Source: Neocallimastix lanati (nom. inval.)
Taxonomy: Eukaryota > Neocallimastigomycota > Neocallimastigomycetes > Neocallimastigales > Neocallimastigaceae
DNA length: 60,000 nucleotides
Direction of reading: 5' to 3'
Assembly (NCBI GenBank): GCA_016946835.1
Contig: JACVTC010000026.1
Span: forward strand, 515,001 to 575,000
Shown: in pieces, positions 1 to 52,000 of the stretch
Numbering within the stretch: position 1 is the first letter of the stretch
How the letters are laid out: every line of letters begins with the position of its first letter
Notes under the pieces: generated by a model
What the model was told of the DNA's origin: nothing
Database searches by the model: none
What the model saw: only the letters and a program-made list of their open reading frames with translations
Translations under genes and position numbers: made by a program

Positions 1-1680
1 TCGATTACGAAATCCATATTATTCAGGTTTTATAAATTCTTTATCAATTTCATATTTGGAGATTCTATTAGCGATGATTTTTGCTATAATTTTTAATATA
101 TTATTGATAAGAAAGATGCCACGATAGTTATTACAATCTGATGGATCGTCCTTTTTATGAATAGAAACTATCAATGCATTATTCCATGATTTTGGGAAAC
201 CTCCATTCCAAATATGATTGATTAAAGTTTTAAGACATTTAAAGCCAAATGAAATATTACTATTATTTTTACTTGATTCTTCTAAATCATCTCTACAAGG
301 AATCAAAACTTTGAAAAATTCCACTGGAATATCATCAGGACTACAAGCTATAAAGTTAGACGTAGTTGAGGTTGCTTCGCTAATTTCTTCATCGCTAATA
401 CCTTTTGGTTAATATCCTCTTCTTATTGTCATAGATTTCCCAAATTCCTTAGTGCATCATAATCTTTCCAGTAATCTTTAGAAAAAGACTATGACATGAA
501 GAACCCAACCCTAAGAATTTATAATGAGAGTGCCAAATTTTTAATTTTTCATCTGTAGAACAAACAAGTACATTATTATTGTTTTTAATAGGATGAGAGA
601 CCGTGAAAGATTGATTATTTATTTTAGCATTCTTTTTTACTCATTTCTATGCTTTCCTACTATCATTTTTAAGAGCTAACGAACGTCCAATTTTAATCCA
701 ATATAAATATTCTTATTTCCTATATTTTTTATGAATTGATTCACATAGCATAGTCTATTATAAGAGTCAATAATTTTAGTAAATTCATTGGAATCTCTCT
801 CAGATTTATAAACATTGATTTATTTATATTTTATATGTTTTACCTTTTGAAGACAATAAATTTTACGTGATATTCTAAACCTCGCTTTTCTGATTTCTGT
901 TGACGATATAATCCATAAATCCTTATCATTGGAATTAAATCGTATTGAAGTACTCAGTACTCTCTCTTTTCATAAAATTCCATCCATTAGTATTCCAACT
1001 AAGACAAAAAGAAAGCTTTCCTGTGTTAGAAAATGAAATTGAATTTTGAGAATTAAGATTAGGAATATTGGGAGCATTGAGCCCTTTATAACATTTACTA
1101 AATTAGCTGAACTGAGATTTACTGAGTTTGTGTTATTGGTTGTGTTATTTGATAATAGATTTTGTTTTAAATGCTAAAAAGAAACTTCATTATTCCATTT
1201 GGAGCATCTACGATATGAAATTTTAACACCTGATATTGCTTTTACAAATACTTACTTCAAATTTTTCGTGGTTGAAATTTGGAGTGTATACTTTTATCCT
1301 AAAGAAACTATCAATGAAATTAGTAATTCTTTTCACTGACAATATATTATTCTTGAATTTTTTTGAATCTAGAAGGAATAAACTCCTTCATTTTTGCATT
1401 GGTCCATGAGTGTATACCACGGATAAAAATCAACCTTGATTTGTCAATAGATATTTCATAACAGCGAGAACCCCGGTGAAATATCTTTCCTATTAAGAAC
1501 AAAAAATTGCAAATTGATAAAAAATGAAACAAATGAAAACTAAAATACTAAAAACGAGGATTATTACGGAAAACATTTTCCCAATAGTCTTAGTTTAAGC
1601 TATGACCAGTAGAATCAGACATTAAGTCCTTGTAATGTTCAGCCCAACGTTTAAGTTAATCATTAAAATCAAATATTTTT
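1..1680 (-). pseudogene. Degenerate LINE (non-LTR retrotransposon) ORF2 fragment with reverse transcriptase start
   Basis: The minus strand reads open from about 410 to 19 and gives the start of a LINE-type reverse transcriptase. It has the region before motif 1 (CSPDDIPVEFFK), then SWNNALIVSIHKKDD, then NNYRGIFLINNILKIIAKI, which are the classical motif 0-2 blocks of non-LTR RTs. The catalytic YADD motif would lie beyond the window start. Above position 410 the frame is broken many times. Short LINE-like stretches can still be read, such as SSTEIRKARFRISRK near 900 and RWAEHYKDLMSDSTGHS near 1580-1650, which resemble the linker between endonuclease and RT. The copy is dead. Whether all of 410-1680 is one insertion is uncertain, since the order of blocks suggests some rearrangement. 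Confidence 0.75.
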
Positions 1681-3155
1681 TTCTTTTTTTTTTTTTTTTT
1701 AGACTTAGAGAATAACTTTATTTAATTTATAATAATAATGAAATTACATGATTTAAATGAAAGAAATAAAATACAGGAAATGAAATATTATATATTATAA
1801 TAATTATAAAAGTGTGTTAGAAGCAATAGCCTCTAACTTTTCCCATTCCTCAATGATAACAGTCCATTATTCATTATTGTGAGTAATAATTTCAATATTA
1901 GTGTTATCAAACCGAATCTGTATCAGAATTTTCAACCTGAGGTGAAAATCCATACCTTATCATTTCGACATCGACGCTCTTACCAACGGATGATTCAATA
2001 GATTCAACGGAATACCATTTCATCATCAATCTAAAAGATCAATAAATTAATGGTATTACGTTTGTTAGAAACTCCTCAATCCCCACAAAATATGGAACAG
2101 TTGACGAAGTTGAACTTTGTTTAAAAATATTGTCAACTAATTATCTTTATTTCCCATCATTAAGTTTAATTTTTTCATATATTGAACGCCCGCCAAGACA
2201 CTCAATATAAAATAATAAATATTATTATCATAATCTTTTTCTAAATTTAAAGAAAAAACCCAAGGATTTTTGTTCAATTATCATTGCAAACTTCAAAAAG
2301 AGATCATCTAGAAAAGATAAAGATTTATTTCTATAATTTTTCCAATTCTTTACAGCCAAAGATCCAGTAAGAAAATCTAGGAACACTAACACTACAACAA
2401 TGGCAACATTTAGGGCAATCTTCTGAGACTATTTTTCTTTTAATGGAAATACTAATGTCAAATTAAAAACCACACCGAATTCGAGAAATTCAAAAGAACC
2501 CCAACTGATACTTAGGATATTGAAATGATAAGTCTTTGATTTCTGAAATAAATCCAAAATCATTCTCCTTGTAAATAATTGCTTTTTTTAGCTTTTGAGG
2601 GTTTGAAGACATCACTTTCCCAATAAAACTTTTTTATTTCACTTGTTTTTTTTACCATTTTAATTTCTTATCCAAAGTCCTTGATTCTTTAGTCCATGAC
2701 TAATGAGACAAAGTAGGAATATTATTAGTGAGATGATTAATAATACATAATGAGTTTTTCCATTTTCTAAAGCAGCACATTTATTTGAGATATAGCACAG
2801 ACAGCTGAAAGAAGAGGTATTCTCAATTCACGAGTAATATCATAGAGACTAACATAAGAATTGTGAGATTTAAATTCATAACTTCAATAAAGTCCTCTAT
2901 TAATAATTTTTTGAGCTTTAGAGCATCTGCTCTTATTTGAACCAAAGAAAGGAGCATAATATAAAACAAGATTTAGACTTAACAAGATGAAGAATGTAAG
3001 CTGAATATGCAGGTTTAGAGATCTTCTTGAGACCACGCCAATCATGACTATTGTCTTTGTTTATAAAATAGTTACTTTATAATTTGGGTATAATTGGTTC
3101 ATCTTTATATACAATTTTTTTAAAAATATTTATTACATAAACTCAATCTTTTAAA
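1681..3155 (-). mobile_element. 5'-truncated LINE copy B, 3' half of ORF2 plus tail
   Basis: On the minus strand this copy ends in ATAAAGTTATTCTCTAAGTCT followed by a poly(A) run, seen as poly(T) at about 1682-1701. It carries the end of ORF2, including a CPKCCHCCSVSVP-like cysteine cluster of the zf-RVT type, broken by frameshifts. It is close to identical over about 1.3 kb to the plus-strand copy at 42892-44214. Its 5' part (about 3000-3150, GLKKISKP and following) recurs at 5203-5345, so it belongs to the same family as copies C and D. Confidence 0.8.
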
Positions 3156-15899: not shown

Positions 15900-17320
<1,421 letters not shown>

Positions 17321-18809: not shown

Positions 18810-18966
18810 GGTTGTGCTAGTACTGTGTTTTTAAGAAAGAATTGCTAGCATTTGGGTACATGATTTCATATGTCCATGTAGATATATATTATATTTGTGA
18901 TGTAGATATATTTTACTAAATTGAAATCTTTCTGACATTTATGCATTTGCCTAGGGAGCTAGTACG
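18810..18966 (+). repeat. Left terminal inverted repeat of the MULE
   Basis: Inverted match to 21505-21663 with small indels and an AT-rich middle that has diverged. The best-kept parts are the outer GGTTGTGC block, CATTTGGGTACATGATTTCA, and the inner TTTCTGAC to GAGCTAGTACG. Confidence 0.8.
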
Positions 18967-19084
18967 GGAGTGGGGCATTTCGCCAAGATGCATTTTGCCA
19001 ATTGAAAATTATTAAATGAATAAATAATTTAATAAAATTAAAGATTATTAATATTGATGCATTTAATATTTTTAAAGTAAATAT

Positions 19085-19985
19085 TTAAATATTAAAAAAA
19101 AAAAAAAAAAAAAAAAAATATTTTCATATATAGATATCTTTACAGGTACCTGCTTAAATAAATAAATATTGACAAGTAATAAATAATAAAATAAATAATA
19201 ATATAAACAGTATAGTAATAATTATAAAAGGATTGTTATTAATAATGATGGTGATGATGATTTAAACTATAAATAATAATTAGAACTATATATAAATATA
19301 TATATATGAATTAATAAAATAATATTTAAATACTTTAGAAAAACACAAAAAAGTTTTTCTGATAGCATTTTATGCTATAAATTAATAATATATAATATAT
19401 AATAACTAATAAATAGATAATATAAACTGTAAGAATAATTACAGAAATACCAATAATAATATTTGTATAATAACGATGAAAATAATAATAATAGTTATTA
19501 AATATTAAAATAAATATAAATGAATTAAAATTATAATATAAAATTTTTATACTAATAAAATATATTAGCAAACAAAATAATCTCAAAAATACTTTATAAT
19601 TATCAGTTACACTAAACAACCAAAAAAAAAAAAAAAAAAAAAAATAAGGAATAATTTAAAATATAGAAAAATTAAAAAATACGATTTGGAATATTAATCT
19701 TCATTTAAAATATATATAAAATATATATTATAAAATTAATCATTAAAATATTTAATTAGAAATTTTTATTAAAATAAAATGGAGAAAAATCAAAAAATAG
19801 AAATAATCAAAACTAATAGAGGATAAGAAGAATAAATTATTTTAAATAGAAAATATAAATTTAATCTTTTATCCAAAAGAAAAGACAATTCAAAAAAAAA
19901 AAAAAAAAAAAAAAATAAATGTACAGATTATAAAACACTAAATAAATAACCATCTTTCATTATTTGAAATAATGAGAATCAAAAC
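19085..19985. other. Noncoding left interior of the MULE
   Basis: A run of A residues at 19093-19118, then AT-rich DNA with a GATGATGGTGATGATGA stretch near 19242. An apparent hydrophobic minus-strand frame at 19335-19619 has amino acids forced by the A/T composition and no recognisable motif. Confidence 0.5.
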
Positions 19986-19989
19986 TTAG

Positions 19990-20434
19990 AACTCACATAA
20001 TCATCTTGAAAATAAATTTGAAGCAGCTAAATCAGTTGTAAAAAATAAAATTAAAGATGAAATTTCAAATAATTCAATTCCTTTTAATGCAAATATAAAA
20101 TGTAAATATGATGAAATTTCTTTAAAGTATGGGTCTTATATGTCTTGGAGAAAGTTCAATTAAATCCCAAGTAACAAAAAAGTAGAAGAAAACAGCTATC
20201 TCATGATATAACAACATTTGATGAAATTCCCTATGAACCAAAATATTATAAAACAAAAAGGGATGAAAATTTTATGATATTCAAAAATCATGATTTAATA
20301 GTTTTTTAATCTCCATTCCAAGCAGAATTATTTTCTAAAAAAAATATATATATATATATGTTTGAGGATAGTATATTTTATATTTCACCTACATTTAATT
20401 ATCAAGTATTCATAACTAGAACCTATGTCACAGA

Positions 20435-20477
<43 letters not shown>

Positions 20478-21206
20478 TACTTCCTTTTCTATATTAAAAA
20501 ATAAAAAAGCAAACAACTTATGAAATATTATTTGAAGAAATAAAAAAATATAAATCTAGTAAATATAATAGTATTGAAATTACACCAATAATATTTCATT
20601 GATATTTTGGAAAAAAAAAAAAAAAAAAAAAAAAATATCTAATCCTGTAGAAAAAGTTTTTTCTTAATGTAAATATTAAATAGAGCATTATAAATTCAAA
20701 AAAAAAAAAATTGTGTGGTTATAAAGTTAAAAAAAAAAAAAAAAAATTATATATTTATTATCAAAATATTTCGAACTTTTCTTTTATTAACCTTGAATAT
20801 ATATATATGGCATTTATAGTAAAATAAAAAGTGAGTACAAAGAACATAATTATGTTCAATTTTTTGAATTTTTAGAATATTTTAAAAAAGCCTATTTAAT
20901 TAGCTATGAAACTGAAAGTTGGAATTATTATGATAATATTTGAGCATATTACAAATAATGTTTCAGAATCTTTTAATAAAACTTAAAAAAAAAAAAAAAA
21001 TACGAATGGAGAACTTCTGGAATTTTGAAAAAAAAAAAAAAAAAAGTCATTTTAATGAAGTTTTATCATTATCATTTTTCTTATTTATATTAGTTCCATG
21101 TTCAACGAAATGTTTTCCCGATGCTTCATCTTTATCACAACATACATTAAATATTATATATTTTATCATTTTTATTTTTCTTTATTTATATCTATACAAT
21201 GCTTAA
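19990..21206 (+). pseudogene. MULE transposase relic
   Basis: Broken plus-strand frames give, in order: IKCKYDEISLKYGSYMSWRK (N-terminal DNA-binding type region, about 20000-20160); FEDSIFYISPTFNYQVFITR (about 20361-20430); TTYEILFEEIKKYKSSKYNS followed by ITPIIFH (about 20515-20600), where the family normally has a catalytic Asp-Phe-Glu; FFEFLEYFKKAYLISYETES and WNYYDNI (to 20940); and, after a 1-base shift, EHITNNVSESFNK, the usual NNxxESxN motif. Stops, shifts and long A or T runs lie between the blocks. Recognition rests on remembered family patterns. Confidence 0.7.
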
Positions 21207-21504
21207 CTAAATATTTTTTTCATTTTATCATATTTGTATTTTTCTTATAACATCTATTACAGGTAATGTAAATAATAATAAAATTTCATTATTTTCTTGT
21301 CTAAATTCAATTAAAAAAAAATATATATATATATATATTTTACTACTGCTTTATTCATACTTCTACATACATTAAGTAATGATGTATAATCAGTTTTATC
21401 TTATTTATTGCTGATAATTTTCTAGTACGCTTTTTCTCGGAGTGTTTCCCCAGTTCTTAACTTCCCTTTGAAACAAGACTAATATAACCTAACCCATGGT
21501 GATA

Positions 21505-21663
21505 CGTACTAGCTCACTTGGTAATTGTATAAACGTCAGAAAGATTGAAATTTAGTAAAATATTTAAATCACCAAGTAGAACATTTCGATATGGACACAT
21601 GAAATCATGGACCCAAATGATAATTTCCTTATAAATATATTAAATGACTGTCCTTGCGCAACC
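21505..21663 (-). repeat. Right terminal inverted repeat of the MULE
   Basis: Reverse complement matches the left arm in the same order, with the outer end at the higher coordinate. This is the geometry of terminal inverted repeats and not of a random inverted duplication. Confidence 0.8.
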
Positions 21664-26405: not shown

Positions 26406-28328
26406 AAACAAAAAAAAAGATGAAAAAATAAAAAAAATCAAAATCAAAAATCAAAAATAAATAAAATGTGATAGTTATAAATAAATTATTAATGGAAAAA
26501 TCTTTTATTTCAATACCTTTAATTAAATAAATTATAATGTTTTATTTAATTGTTTATAAACACTAAAATTAACACCTTTTATAAGTTTAATATTGTAAAA
26601 ATTATTTATTAATAATAAATATAGTGTTTGTAAAAATATGTATATATCACGTGTAATATAAAATAATAATTTGTTTTATATAATAGATTAAATTATTGTT
26701 TATTCTTAAATACATTATGTATTAAATAATACTAATTTTTTTTTTTTATTTTTAGTATTATTGTATAAACTAGTAATACCATTTATGGTATAATTAAAGA
26801 AAAACTTCATAAAAAATTAATATATTAATAGTGTCAATCATTAGAGTTTATTTTTTTTTTTTAAAAAAAATAGTTAAAATATTTTAAAAATTAATAAATA
26901 TATAATATTTAATAATATATAACATATATATATTTTTATTAAATGTAATTGTATTTTATTAGATATAATATCAGCTGACTATTTAAAAAAATAGTATAAT
27001 ACATAATATTACATATAATATAAAATTTAAAGATAAAAAATAAGTACACCTTTTTTCTAATATATAAGATGTTTATACATGTATGCATGGATTATCACTT
27101 ATCTTTTTATATATATGTAACTTTTTTAATTACTATATAAAAAAAGTTTACAAAATATAATATTTATTCGGGTTTCTAATTATTATTATCATTAATATGA
27201 ATCATACAAATACTTTAAAATATTGATATGTAATAATTTATTTAACATAATAATTAAAGTTTAAAAACTATTGTTATTATTATTTATATAGTTTTTTTAT
27301 AATAATATTATTATATATAATACTAATAACAATAAATAAAATTCAATACTTTTTTCATTATTTGTTATATTAATAAAATTCATATATTTTGATTCATAAT
27401 ATATATATATATATTAAAATATATTAGAATTAAATAACAATAATATATAAAATTTATTTTTACCATTAGGAATGATATTAAATCTTGTTACATCTAAATC
27501 TGAAATGAGAAAAAAAAGAATAATTTTACCTTTTATAGTCATATTAATAATTGAAGAAACTTAATAATTAAATCAATATAAAATTATGTAATATATACTT
27601 ATTATAATATATTAATATATACAATAAATTAAGTATTATTAATGTATCATAGATAGAATATTAATTAAAAAAAAGATGAATAGGGAAAAAAAACATGCAT
27701 GAATTATAAAAAATGTGCGTTGTTATTGTTATTACTATTGTTTATTCTTATATTTTTTTTACTTTCTATTTTTTATTTTTTTTTTATTTTTTTATTTTTT
27801 TTTTACTTTGATTTATTAAAAAAAAAAAATATATGAGAAAAATAATAAAAATAATTTTTTTTTAAAGCAAATTAAATAAATTATATTTAATTATTATAAT
27901 TCATATTATTTAATAAATAAATAAAATTAATGAAAATAAAATGAATAATATTTAATACTTTAATTTTTATTTATTTTATATTTATTTATTTTTTATTATT
28001 ATTATTTTTTTTAAATATTATTTTATTATAATAAGAATATATATATATCATAATGTAATTTATGTATTAATTCATATTGTATTTAAATAGCAAAATGAAA
28101 TATTAAATATTATTTATTTCTACCATATATAATACTTTAAATAATTTTTATTTGAATTTAAATAAATTATAAATTCTTTAATTTTTATTTCTTTTTTCAG
28201 TAAAAAAAATATCAATTTAATCAAATTCATTTATTTGATTTATTTCAAAAGGTTGATAATACGGGTATAGTAAATAAATATTTAAAATTTTTTTCTTTTT
28301 TCTTTTTTCTCATTTCTTTTTCTTTCTT

Positions 28329-46662: not shown

Positions 46663-47140
46663 TTAGACTAAGAATAAACTTTATTTAACAATATAAAAAT
46701 AAAAAAAAAAAAAAAAAAAAAAAGTACATGAAAATAAAATACATGAAATTTTTTTTTACTTTAATGTTTAAAAATTAGTTTATGAGTTTCGATGACGAAA
46801 TGGTCTCTAACTCTTCTCCATTTATCAATGATAACTTCATATGGATTAAAATTATCATTCGAATCTATATATCAGAATTTTCTTTTTGCCATATCGTTTC
46901 GACAACGGTAGGTCTAATGGTATACAAATTGATCATAGTGAAAAAACCACTAATTTCATGAGGAATAGTATTTGTAAGGAGTTTCTTCCACAAATATGAA
47001 AATGGGAAAGAAGACTGTCTTGAAGTTGATTGAAAAATATTATTAATAAAAGGAATTTCTTTCCCCCGAAGAGATCTTTAAGATTTCATATACTGCATTT
47101 TCACCAAGAAAGAGACACAGTATGTAAAAAATTTATATAT
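46663..47140 (-). mobile_element. LINE copy F, 3'-end fragment
   Basis: Minus-strand match to copy D (4461-4935). It shares AGACTAAGAATAAACTTTAT, TACATGAAATTTTTTTT, GGTCTCTAACTCTTC, ATTATCATTCGAATCTATAT and GAGACACAGTATGTAAAAA. It is clearly more diverged than copies B and E are from each other. No poly(T) precedes the 3' end at 46663, so the tail has been lost. The copy stops where the AAAAT satellite begins. Confidence 0.75.
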
Positions 47141-47160: not shown

Positions 47161-48810
47161 AAATAAATAGTAGAATATTAAATAAGAAAAGTACAGATTG
47201 AATAAAATAAAATAAAATAAAATAAAATAAAATAAAATAAATAGTAGAAATATAAATATGAAGTACAGATTGAATAAAATAAAATAAAATAAAATAAAAT
47301 AAAATAAAATAAAATAAAATAAAATAAAATAAAATAAAATAAAATAAATAGTAGAAATATAGATATAAAAGTACAGATTGAATAAAATAAAATAAAATAA
47401 AATAAATAGTAGAAATATAGATATAAAAGTACAGATTGAATAAAATAAAATAAAATAAAATAAAATTAAATAAAATAAAATAAAATAAAATAAAATAAAA
47501 TAAAATAAAATAAAATAAAATAAAATAAAATAAAATAAAATAAAATAAAATAAAATAAAATAAAATAAAATAAAATAAAATAAAATAAAATAAAATAAAA
47601 TAAAATAAAATAAAATAAAATAAAATAAAATAAAATAAAATAAAATAAAATAAAATAAAATAAAATAAAATAAAATAAAATAAAATAAAATAAAATAAAA
47701 TAAAATAAAATAAAATAAAATAAAATAAAATAAAATAAAATAAAATAAAATAAAATAAAATAAAATAAAATAAAATAAAATAAAATAAAATAAAATAAAA
47801 TAAAATAAATAGTAGAAATATAGATATAAAAGTACAGATTGAATAAAATAAAATAAAATAAAATAAAATTAAATAAAATAAAATAAAATAAAATAAAATA
47901 AAATAAAATAAAATAAAATAAAATAAAATAAAATAAAATAAAATAAAATAAAATAAAATAAAATAAAATAAAATAAAATAAAATAAAATAAAATAAAATA
48001 AAATAAAATAAAATAAAATAAAATAAAATAAATAAATAAAATAAAATAAAATAAAATAAAATAAAATAAAATAAATAAAATAAAATAAAATAAAATAAAA
48101 TAAAATAAATAGTAGAAATATAAATATGAAGTACAGATTGAATAAAATAAAATAAAATAAATAGTAGAAATATAAATATGAAATACAGATTGAATAAAAT
48201 AAAATAAAATAAATAGTAGAAATATAATTATGAAGTACAGATTGAATAAAATAAAATAAAATAAAACAAAATAAAATAAATAGTAGAAATATAAATATGA
48301 AGTACAGATTGAATAAAATAAAATAAAATAAAATATATAGTAGAAATATAAATATGAAGTACAGATTGAATAAAATAAAATAAAATAAAATAAAATAAAA
48401 TAAATAGTAGAAATATAAATATGAAGTACAGATTGAATAAAATAAAATAAAATAAAATAAAATAAAATAAATAGTAGAAATATAAATATGAAGTACAGAT
48501 TGAATAAAATAAAATAAAATAAAATATATAGTAGAAATATAAATATGAAGTACAGATTGAATAAAATAAAATAAAATAAAATAAAATAAAATAAAATAAA
48601 ATAAAATAAAATAAAATAAAATAAAATAAAATAAAATAAAATAAAATAAAATAAAATAAAATAAAATAAAATAAAATAAAATAAAATAAAATAAAATAAA
48701 ATAAAATAAAATAAAATAAAATAAAATAAAATAAAATAAAATAAAATAAAATAAATAATAGAAATATAAATATGAAGTACAGATTGAATAAAATAAAATA
48801 AAATAAATAT
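47161..48810. repeat. Composite satellite: AAAAT arrays with 14 interspersed copies of a ~35-bp unit
   Basis: Pentanucleotide AAAAT (TAAAA) arrays of about 3 to more than 70 units are separated by 14 copies of a unit running TAGTAGAAATATAAATATGA plus AGTACAGATTGAAT. Copies begin near 47169, 47242, 47349, 47407, 47811, 48111, 48162, 48215, 48280, 48338, 48405, 48471, 48529 and 48758. Two variants exist: ATAGATATAAAAGTACAG (three early copies) and ATAAATATGAAGTACAG (most others). The largest arrays are about 47454-47810, 47840-48110 and 48556-48755. Confidence 0.95.
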
Positions 48811-49089: not shown

Positions 49090-52000
49090 TTAGTCAATAC
49101 TTAAAATCTTCTTTAATTGAATAATAAGAGCCCATTCTTCTTTAGTTACATCATTACGGAAGGTTGATTTTAAAATATCAATAGAAGCTCTAGTAATACG
49201 ACTGTAAAGTAGATCCTTTTCGAAGAAGTGTCTACCAACCATCTTTGGTGTTTCGTAAACTGGACTTTCAATCTTAATAGCAACAGCTGGATCACCCTTA
49301 CGAACAACTTCTTTAGCTTTGTGATTTAATTCAATACCAATAACTTTACCTATTGATACAATTTGATTTTCAGCATTAACAACACATAATGGTGTACCAA
49401 TTCTTAATTGACCTTCAAGGACATCGACACCAATTACAATTGGATTACGTTTATTAAAGACACAACCTGGAACAATCTTTAATTTACATGGGAATACAGC
49501 ACTTGGAGCTTGATCACGACGACGAGTTTCAGTAACTTCTTCCATGTATTTTGTAAATTGATCAAATAAGTGATAAATAATATCAGCCTTAAAGATTTTA
49601 ACACCCATTTCATCTGCAAGGTCTTGAGCTTCTTTATCAACTTTAACATCAAATGCTAAAATTTGTGCATATTCTGGTTGAGATTCAAGCATAATACTAG
49701 CTCTAATAATATCTTTCTTGTGAACTGGTCCAATATTAATACCAGAAACTGGAATTTTACTTTCACGTAAGAACTCCAATAAGGCTTCAAGGGAACCTAA
49801 TGTTGATGCTTGAACACATACACCTTTACCACTCTTATCTATTGCTGATTGAAGATTCTGAAGATCAGACATAACTTCATCTAATAAATCTTCTTCATCG
49901 TCACCTGGTTGAACAACCAAAAGTCTTGAACCTGCAATAGCCTTTTCAAGATCTGGAGCACAAATCTTAACACCAAGAGCAGCCTTGACTTCTTTGTGAT
50001 GAATATAAGCAGATTTTACACGTAATTCTCTCATTGGTTGAGGTGTCAATAATGCACGAATATTTGTGGCGATTGGTCCATTCAAACCACATAGTACAAT
50101 TCTATCACCTTCGTGTAATTTACCATTTGATAAAATAACATCAATTGTAGTACCAAGACCTTCAATAACCTTAACTTCAAGAACAGTACATTCTAATTCA
50201 GAAAGGTACATTAAATCATTGGTCATTCTTTCTTGTGTTAACTTAACTAACAAACGTAAAAGATCAGGAATACCTTCACCAGTATGAGCAGATGTTGGAC
50301 AAAGAGAAACATATTTGGAGAAATTCTTATTTTCATATGAGAGAGTAGCGTTCAAACCTTGTTCATTAAAAGCAACAATTGTTTGTTGAACACGTTCTTC
50401 AAATTCTTGAATAACATGTTTTGGTTGTTGAGCAAGTGTTTCTTGAATTGGAGCATCTGGGATTGCTTTCCAACCATAAATACGATCAATTTTATTTAAT
50501 GCGACTACAAATGGTGTTTTTCTTTGACGTAATAATCCAATAGATTCAAGAGTTTGTGGTTCTAATCCATGCATAATATCAACAACTAATACCGCAATAT
50601 TACATAATGAAGAACCACGAGAACGTAAGTTTGTGAAAGATTCGTGACCTGGTGTATCGATGACCAATAAACCTGGAACTTTGTATTCAAAACCATCATT
50701 ATTTAATTTTGCTGTTTTTATCTTGATAGATTCCATTGGGAAGTAAGTAGCACCAATTTGCTGGGTAATACCTCCAGCTTCTCCATCTTGAACGTTAGTT
50801 TGACGAATTTTATCTAATAATTTAGTTTTACCTGTATCAACATGTCCAAGAACGACACAAATTGGAGAACGTAAATCATTTTCGTTTCTAGCTTGTAAAG
50901 CATCTTCCATACGTTTCTTTAATAGCAAAAACAACAACAATTATTATTATTATAATAATATTATTAATGAATTATCGCTTTATTATTTTCAATTTATATA
51001 TAAGATAATAGTTTAATGATAACTGAAATAAATTTAATTTATTTTCATCAATCATACCTTTCTACGTTGAGCAGACTCTTCTTTTCTTTTTTTCCTTTCT
51101 TCTTCATCTTCTTCATCTTCTTCATCATCTTCTTCTTCATCATTTTGTTCTTGTTTTTTAGAAGTTTTTGGCTTTGTTTCTTTTGATTTTTTCTCTTCTT
51201 TAATTTCTATTTAATTAAAATTAAAAATTTATTTTTAATTAATTACGCAATATACTATCTCTAAAATATAATTGTTATTTTTATGTAACATTAAAATCTC
51301 AATTAAATTTTAATATGTACCTTTTTCTTCTTCTTCATCTTCCCAGCTATCCTTAATATCTTCATTTTCCTTTTCTTTCTTTTCATCTTTTTCTTCCTTT
51401 TCTTCATCTTCTTCTTCCTCATCTTCATCTTCCCAACTGTCTTTAACTTCCTTCTTTGGAGCTGGAGCTGGAATTACTTCGGCATCATCATCTAAAAAGT
51501 CTTCCCAACTATCTTTAACATCTTCCTTTGTTTCTTCAACTTCTTTTACAGATTCTTCTTTTGAAGATACTTCTGTAGATTCAGCTTGTGAATTAGTTTG
51601 ACTTTTCTTATTATTCTTCTTTCTTTTACCATAAACAACCTTTTTCTTCTTTTCACCATCTTTCTTTTCAAAAGCAGCTATAGTTACACCTTGTTCTAAC
51701 ATTTGTTGCAATTTTAATTTGTTTCTTTGTTGGGCTTCTTTTTGTGATTTAGTTAAATATTTACCTTCCTTCTTTAATCTTTCTTTCTTTAACTATTATT
51801 TTTTTTGAAATAAGTTAGAAATAACAATTAAGAAATAATTAATAATATATTTATAAAATTTTAATAAAACTAAATTATTTAATTATTTATCATTAAAAAC
51901 TATATAGTTAGTTATATATACTCTTTCTTTTTCTTTCTTTTGTTGTCTTGCTTCTTCTTTTTTTCTTTCTTCTTCTGCAATTAAACGTTCTTCTTCTTCA

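Follow-up and report, generated by a model that had tools for sequence, protein, structure and literature searches.

The window analyzed here, i.e., the whole stretch of 60,000 nucleotides from Neocallimastix lanati, contains a block in which short units alternate with AAAAT tracts, and the question raised by this locus is whether such a block is a product of its own surroundings or one local array of a repeat that is spread through the genome, and how it reached its present size. For N. lanati, published figures give 200.97 Mbp and 970 contigs, and the genomes of gut fungi are described as extremely AT- and repeat-rich (PMC8561657). The GC content of our window is 16.9%, and our genome searches covered 199,045,447 bases in 762 contigs. 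The block and its two neighbors are made up as follows.

46720 to 47138, minus strand (strand inferred): tested end of a dispersed repeat, outside the satellite, ending 26 bp before the block
47165 to 48804, plus strand: composite satellite block of 14 units and their AAAAT tracts (unit parsing and shuffle test)
47165 to 47203, plus strand: first unit, divergent, 39 bp, ATTAAATA form (unit parsing)
47239 to 47275, plus strand: unit identical to the commonest exact 37-mer, with 320 genome copies; also at 48107, 48278, 48402 and 48469
47404 to 47441, plus strand: ATAGATATAAAAG-form unit; together with the tract start that follows it (AAAATTAAAT variant), matched again at 47807 in 80 of 80 bases
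47442 to 47806, plus strand: long tract 1, (AAAAT)5 TAAAT (AAAAT)67 (unit parsing)
47807 to 47844, plus strand: ATAGATATAAAAG-form unit, second copy of the unit-plus-tract duplication (unit parsing)
47845 to 48106, plus strand: long tract 2, (AAAAT)5 TAAAT (AAAAT)31, then more runs with AAAT slips (unit parsing)
48193 to 48383, plus strand: three-unit tandem duplication of 191 bp, copy 1, 189 of 191 bases identical to copy 2
48384 to 48574, plus strand: three-unit tandem duplication, copy 2, 189 of 191 bases identical to copy 1
48563 to 48752, plus strand: long tract 3, pure (AAAAT)38 (unit parsing)
48753 to 48789, plus strand: last unit, AAATAATAG start (unit parsing)
49090 to 50940, minus strand: eIF5B open frame, outside the satellite; about 285 bp separate its stop codon from the block

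Our analysis confirms that the 14-copy block described in the first-pass annotation is real, and that its units are kept beyond chance. Each unit is closed by AGTACAGATTGAAT, which occurs 14 times at 47190-48789 (13 exact matches and one with a single mismatch), and shuffled versions of the window searched at up to two mismatches gave a mean of 0.94 matches, with 14 reached in none of 100 shuffles. The unit length of 35 bp given earlier is slightly short, in that 10 of the 14 units measure 37 bp, three measure 38 bp (the ATAGATATAAAAG form, at 47346, 47404 and 47807) and one, the divergent first unit, measures 39 bp. The 13 tracts between units span 15-365 bp, and 10 of them are pure AAAAT. 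It had also been proposed that unit variants cluster by position, and this holds overall, but copy 2 (47239) already bears the form assigned to the later copies.

The block had been placed between a LINE copy, termed F, and the 3′ end of eIF5B. For the open frame at 49090-50940, the match is to PRK04004 (translation initiation factor IF-2, eIF5B/aIF-2 type; 3.7e-187, above the cut-off), and the end of a dispersed repeat does lie to the left; the identity of the dispersed repeat as a LINE is a reading and not a tool result. This dispersed repeat ends early in the window: 27 of the 29 other copies fetched run beyond its stop and two stop nearby, and therefore the block is not the tail of that element. 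A second eIF5B-like copy, 83-90% identical, is present at C61:60547-62375 (L052, L053); the stretches of it that were examined contain neither the unit core nor a run of four AAAAT, and so it offers no empty site. This copy has apparent frame breaks by eye and is perhaps a decaying paralogue.

Local growth of such arrays is well supported, and the evidence begins within the window itself. A 191-bp segment of three units stands twice in direct succession, the two copies agreeing at 189 of 191 bases. The unit at 47404, together with a tract start that includes the AAAATTAAAT variant, is repeated at 47807 without a difference in 80 bases. In addition, on contig C41, eleven exact units repeat 2,101 bp further on, with ten spacings matching, of which two are longer by exactly 5 bp, a run of spacings that was reached in none of 2,000 shuffles; a shorter spacing repeat on C22 fell within the range of shuffles (302 of 2,000). 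These duplications, with their parallels on C41 and at paralogous places, bear out the earlier proposal against many separate insertions, in that the block grew by duplication of unit plus tract and by slippage of the pentanucleotide. For example, three paralogous places on contig C1, 88-94% identical, contain 7, 11 and 3 units, and two others 10.6 kb apart and 84% identical (C1:907k and C1:918k; L032, L033) differ in that a pure (AAAAT)164 follows the unit in one, with at most three perfect consecutive repeats in the other. Unit spacings of up to 95 bp equal 2 modulo 5 in 65 of 65 cases in the C1, C22, C24 and C41 arrays, and in 8 of 9 cases in the window, demonstrating that the length of the unit stays fixed and the tract changes in whole AAAAT steps.

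Arrays are also homogenized locally. Across 162 units from 22 loci, the mean unit distance was 0.059 within a locus vs 0.126 between loci, with none of 2,000 label shuffles as low. Neighboring units in the window were more alike than in permutations (p 0.0074, with 12 of the 14 units caught by this comparison), and the same likeness of neighbors gave an uncorrected p below 0.05 in 7 of 19 groups, several of the others being too uniform or too small to test. Neighbor likeness was absent at two larger arrays, C1:64k and C1:2436k (p 0.90 each), the units at C1:3112k were not closer to each other than to those of other loci (0.138 vs 0.132), and C1:1723k, with two units and doubtful parsing, also runs against within-locus likeness. 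At two loci, C1:64k (L001-L010) and C1:929k (L019-L028), unit types ending in GATTGAAT, AAGTATTAATA or ACAAGTATAT are present in one array with AAAAT between them, as if the AAAAT tracts let different units be shuffled together. At L076 (C743; reverse complement, 900-3000), a LINE-like repeat copy sits within a unit array, and the parts of the array on either side of it have a common unit order and a common AAATT tract variant.

The unit is dispersed throughout the genome. The 14-base unit core has 12,373 exact copies (6,315 + 6,058), with none for the reversed control, and AAAATAAAAT directly follows the core in 11,090 of these (5,663 + 5,427; 90%). The commonest exact 37-mer of the window, found in 5 of its 14 units, has 320 genome copies (156 + 164), and the first 100 places listed for it already cover at least 11 contigs. 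These unlinked copies do not sustain a reading of the block as a private satellite. A degenerate 33-mer searched against bacterial and archaeal contigs, and a 24-mer searched against viral contigs, gave no matches, and the titles and abstract openings covered by our literature search, a coverage outside which subscription papers and preprints lie, hold no description of this repeat. The tract is also widespread, with 111,026 (AAAAT)6 words in the genome, close to the number obtained by multiplying the sample ratio (973 per 114 cores) by the number of cores. We dropped the idea that long AAAAT tracts are exclusive to units, given that the sample was picked by cores and that 4 of 6 listed plus-strand sites on C1 have no exact core nearby; runs of four or more AAAAT without a core are likewise present in fetched loci L055, L056 and L059.

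Examination of the regions around unit arrays identified a carrier transposon. At C1:3113k (L047), an open frame of 483 aa contains a MULE domain (PF10551, 3.6e-12, 47 bits vs a cut-off of 27.6) at residues 198-297, preceded by a FLYWCH domain (PF04500, 3.7e-8) at residues 20-81, and a 304-codon open frame at C1:2309k contains both the MULE and FLYWCH domains as well. The order of these domains, FLYWCH ahead of MULE, suggests that the carrier is Tm1-like, or Phantom-type, a name taken from PMC3169594 and based on domain order and not on a tree. The copy at about C1:3113917-3117562 has near-identical terminal inverted repeats in opposite orientation (by eye), and the carrier is thus a MULE both by its transposase domain and by its terminal inverted repeats. 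Target-site duplications of MULEs are about 8-11 bp; the flanks of the C1:3113k copy, the sole element read at both ends, differ by eye. In this copy an array is present in the left arm only, and the right arm is array-free.

The arms of this transposon have a regular order, as seen at C1 150k, 929k and 1008k, where the inverted-repeat end is followed by about 200 bp, an inward-pointing unit array, a center (about 230 bp), units facing the other way, and then the transposase region. Unit arrays were read between end and center at C1 150k, 929k, 1008k, 2309k and 3114k, and at 929k and 1008k oppositely oriented arrays flank the center, both within one arm. A core lies 201-284 bp inside six of the seven inverted-repeat ends listed on C1, in each case in the inward orientation; the one end that lacks it is the right end of the C1:3113k copy, where there is no array. 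The carrier is foldback-like in having variable-length arms of tandem repeats. Genome-wide, at up to two mismatches, there are at least 274 ends and 205 centers, with the number of ends being an undercount, since the search pattern has a rarer first base and the common form therefore already spends one mismatch; a DNA search with the inverted-repeat-end region gave 1,245 first-look candidates, 40 of which were scored. For 44 of the 72 centers examined, an end on the same strand lies 309-2730 bp further out, and the other 28 have no listed end in either orientation within 4 kb. At 18 of the 48 places compared, a sister unit with 238 exact genome copies lies less than 500 bp inside the center and is oppositely oriented. 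Unit-like sequence adjoins the inverted repeat in the transposon arm (by eye), suggesting an origin of the unit family at that position.

In order to place these arrays relative to the transposon, the first 100 cores on C1, which extend up to 3.11 Mb, were grouped into 24 clusters lying more than 2 kb apart. Most of the sampled cores (77 of 100) are in or beside the transposon, in nine MULE-linked clusters. At seven of these (148k, 150k, 929k, 1008k, 2309k, 2437k and 3114k) the link is a terminal inverted repeat, and at two (64k and 1434k) it is adjoining transposase homology alone. The flanks read at the other 15 clusters, mostly about 1.5 kb, showed no clear MULE sequence; 12 of these 15 have a single exact core, some of them within arrays of variant units. 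Scaling from the C1 clusters gives roughly 1,500 to 3,000 loci genome-wide, and C1 may not be typical, since its core density is 32 per Mb vs 62 per Mb for the whole genome. When 11 of the 15 transposon-free clusters and the window were compared with the end and center, 3 of 96 comparisons reached 2 or fewer of 100 shuffles, about the number expected by chance, and none of these three falls at the window. Matches to the inner, AT-rich portion of the inverted repeat were obtained at C1:685k (102 bp, 76%) and at window positions 27853-27947 (72%); neither was counted as a transposon link because similar matches occur in the unit-free repeat loci L059, L070 and L084, and a weak match at C1:2888k (71 bp, 77%) was not taken as a link either.

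The tie of the window block to the transposon is indirect. The commonest exact unit of the window is also the unit of a 14-copy array at C1:1434k, and this array adjoins transposase homology in two pieces (68% and 54% amino-acid identity). The flanks of the window block, compared with the end and center, gave nothing better than 10 of 100 shuffles, with two positive controls exceeding their shuffles, and on C179 about 273 kb separate the block from the closest end matched with no more than one mismatch. A transposase relic does lie in the window, about 26 kb from the block, as a degenerate MULE transposase at 19755-20974 (36-59% identity in pieces), bracketed by inverted ends at 18908-18966 and 21505-21563 (59 bp, 86% complementary); this degenerate MULE, at 18908-21563, contains no copy of the core. 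The first-pass annotation had set its reading against a unit found at unlinked transposon ends, and here the outcome is divided, as the unit does occur at many loci with 9 of 24 sampled clusters MULE-linked, but no transposon end is present beside the window block.

On these grounds, we consider it probable that the window block represents a local, transposon-free array of a dispersed 37-bp unit plus (AAAAT)n, the main home of which is the arms of a foldback-like MULE. The unit would have arisen as an inner-arm repeat of this transposon, and transposition together with segmental duplication would have spread the unit arrays; some loci would have lost the transposon, or have received their units from arrays in some other way. 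Within a locus, AAAAT tracts would lengthen and shorten by slippage, and misaligned AAAAT tracts would permit unequal exchange or long slippage, copying one to several units together. The window block itself contains at least two unit subfamilies, and would have grown by slippage together with unequal exchange or long slippage. For the transposon-free copies, we take transposon loss or passive segmental duplication as the default, with tract-primed copying also possible.

Tract-primed copying leads to the alternative that survives best, i.e., that the 37-bp unit with its AAAAT is a minimal self-spreading repeat, with units copied into broken or stalled tracts. We regard this as possible though unlikely where the MULE is the best-stocked reservoir of units, and as unlikely where the MULE is merely one place that was entered, with a broken or stalled AAAAT tract copying unit plus tract from elsewhere through ectopic gene conversion, template switching or filler DNA. 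If true, a self-spreading unit and tract would explain transposon-free single copies with AAAAT on both sides, and the 15 C1 clusters without clear MULE sequence in the flanks read, 12 of them single-core, are in keeping with it. Where copies stand apart from the transposon, they are usually bordered on each side by AAAAT-like sequence, and short AAAAT tracts without a nearby exact core exist as possible landing sites (the 4 of 6 plus-strand C1 sites noted above). A comparison of 13 loci, in itself a weak test in which the boundary was placed at a distant match, or a tract was omitted, in at least four loci (C1 423k, 906k, 1197k and 3015k), gave no overall signal of target-site duplication, the mean longest match being 4.0 for true pairs vs 4.5 for mismatched pairs. 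Against self-spreading stand the MULE linkage of 77 of the 100 sampled cores, the unit-like sequence seen by eye in the transposon arm itself, and the scarcity of AAAAT tracts of at least four repeats in unit-free sequence, where a census found four in 154,482 bases, each of exactly four repeats; this census comprises the window minus the block plus 28 flanked copies of one repeat family, copies that are not independent of one another.

Repeated independent insertion of a very small retroposed element that carries an AAAAT tail and nests within this tail is very unlikely. Such an element would fit the AAAATAAAAT found directly after 90% of cores, the arrays at C1:1434k and C1:687k that start inside a unit, and the AAACTAA present on both sides of C1:424k (by eye), which could be a short target duplication. 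However, most copies begin at one common base of the unit and have AAAAT 5′ as well, the 13 loci of the weak test above gave no overall duplication signal, the neighboring LINE-like family is unrelated and continues beyond the junction, and spacings are duplicated as blocks.

It is harder still to maintain that the block is a purely local satellite, grown from one chance sequence beside eIF5B. The duplications in the block and the clustering of its variants by position are what such an origin would leave, and the window contains an array that behaves in this way: at 15908-17184 (15.9-17.3 kb), TTA repeats are split by a AATATACAATCTTTTTATAAT-like unit with 17 matches at up to three mismatches, and an exact 22-mer of this array has three genome copies, all within it. 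We therefore rejected this TTA-based array as a second dispersed family, and it looks to be a truly local composite satellite. For the AAAAT block, the 12,373 cores and 320 exact 37-mers found genome-wide refute a purely local origin as a full account. An assembly artefact of simple repeats is the least credible explanation, for although long AAAAT tracts are hard to assemble and their exact lengths may be wrong, 24 separate clusters of one contig have a like architecture with differing lengths and subfamilies.

Taking the window block as a transposon-free local array of the unit carried in MULE arms, one measurable family unites transposon arms, a dispersed satellite and a pentanucleotide microsatellite, which are usually treated apart. 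The fixed 37-bp marker between AAAAT tracts separates slippage, in 5-bp steps, from block duplication, which pure microsatellites cannot do, and the source of transposon-free satellite copies becomes testable through strain comparison. Some of the high repeat content described for such AT-rich genomes (PMC8561657) may also be accounted for by the unit/AAAAT family.

The closest likeness among known systems is to Tm1, a Mutator/Foldback element of root-knot nematodes, with a transposase of 496 aa containing FLYWCH at residues 5-66 and MULE at 197-294, compared with 20-81 and 198-297 in the 483-aa frame identified here (PMC3169594). As in our carrier, the length of the Tm1 inverted-repeat arms varies with the number of tandem motifs, and a single element can differ in this respect from one end to the other; Tm1 arms contain 1-9 motif copies, mostly of 14 bp, whereas those described here have a 37-bp unit, an AAAAT hinge and kilobase arrays, and Tm1 is commonly found with 9-bp target duplications, whereas the one copy read at both ends here shows none by eye (PMC3169594). 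In Drosophila virilis, tandem repeats in the arms of the Tetris foldback transposon build the TIR-220 satellite arrays, as here, and changes in their copy number were ascribed to unequal crossing over, a likeness to our unit arrays; the TIR-220 units are about 220 bp, the passages on them describe no microsatellite hinge, and Tetris is apparently non-autonomous, all unlike the present system (PMC4079207). The Cg_HINE Helentrons of the Pacific oyster similarly disperse short satellite-like arrays as inner repeats of a DNA transposon, but as central repeats of Helentrons and not in MULE arms (PMC7492417). The Mutator-type MuTAnT of Medicago is tied to a microsatellite (TA), as our family is to AAAAT, but there the microsatellite is a target outside the element, whereas here AAAAT tracts alternate with units inside it (PMC4486113). 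Set against these systems as described in their cited sources, the variant feature of the N. lanati family is its two-level build, i.e., a fixed 37-bp unit with a microsatellite hinge, together with its scale.
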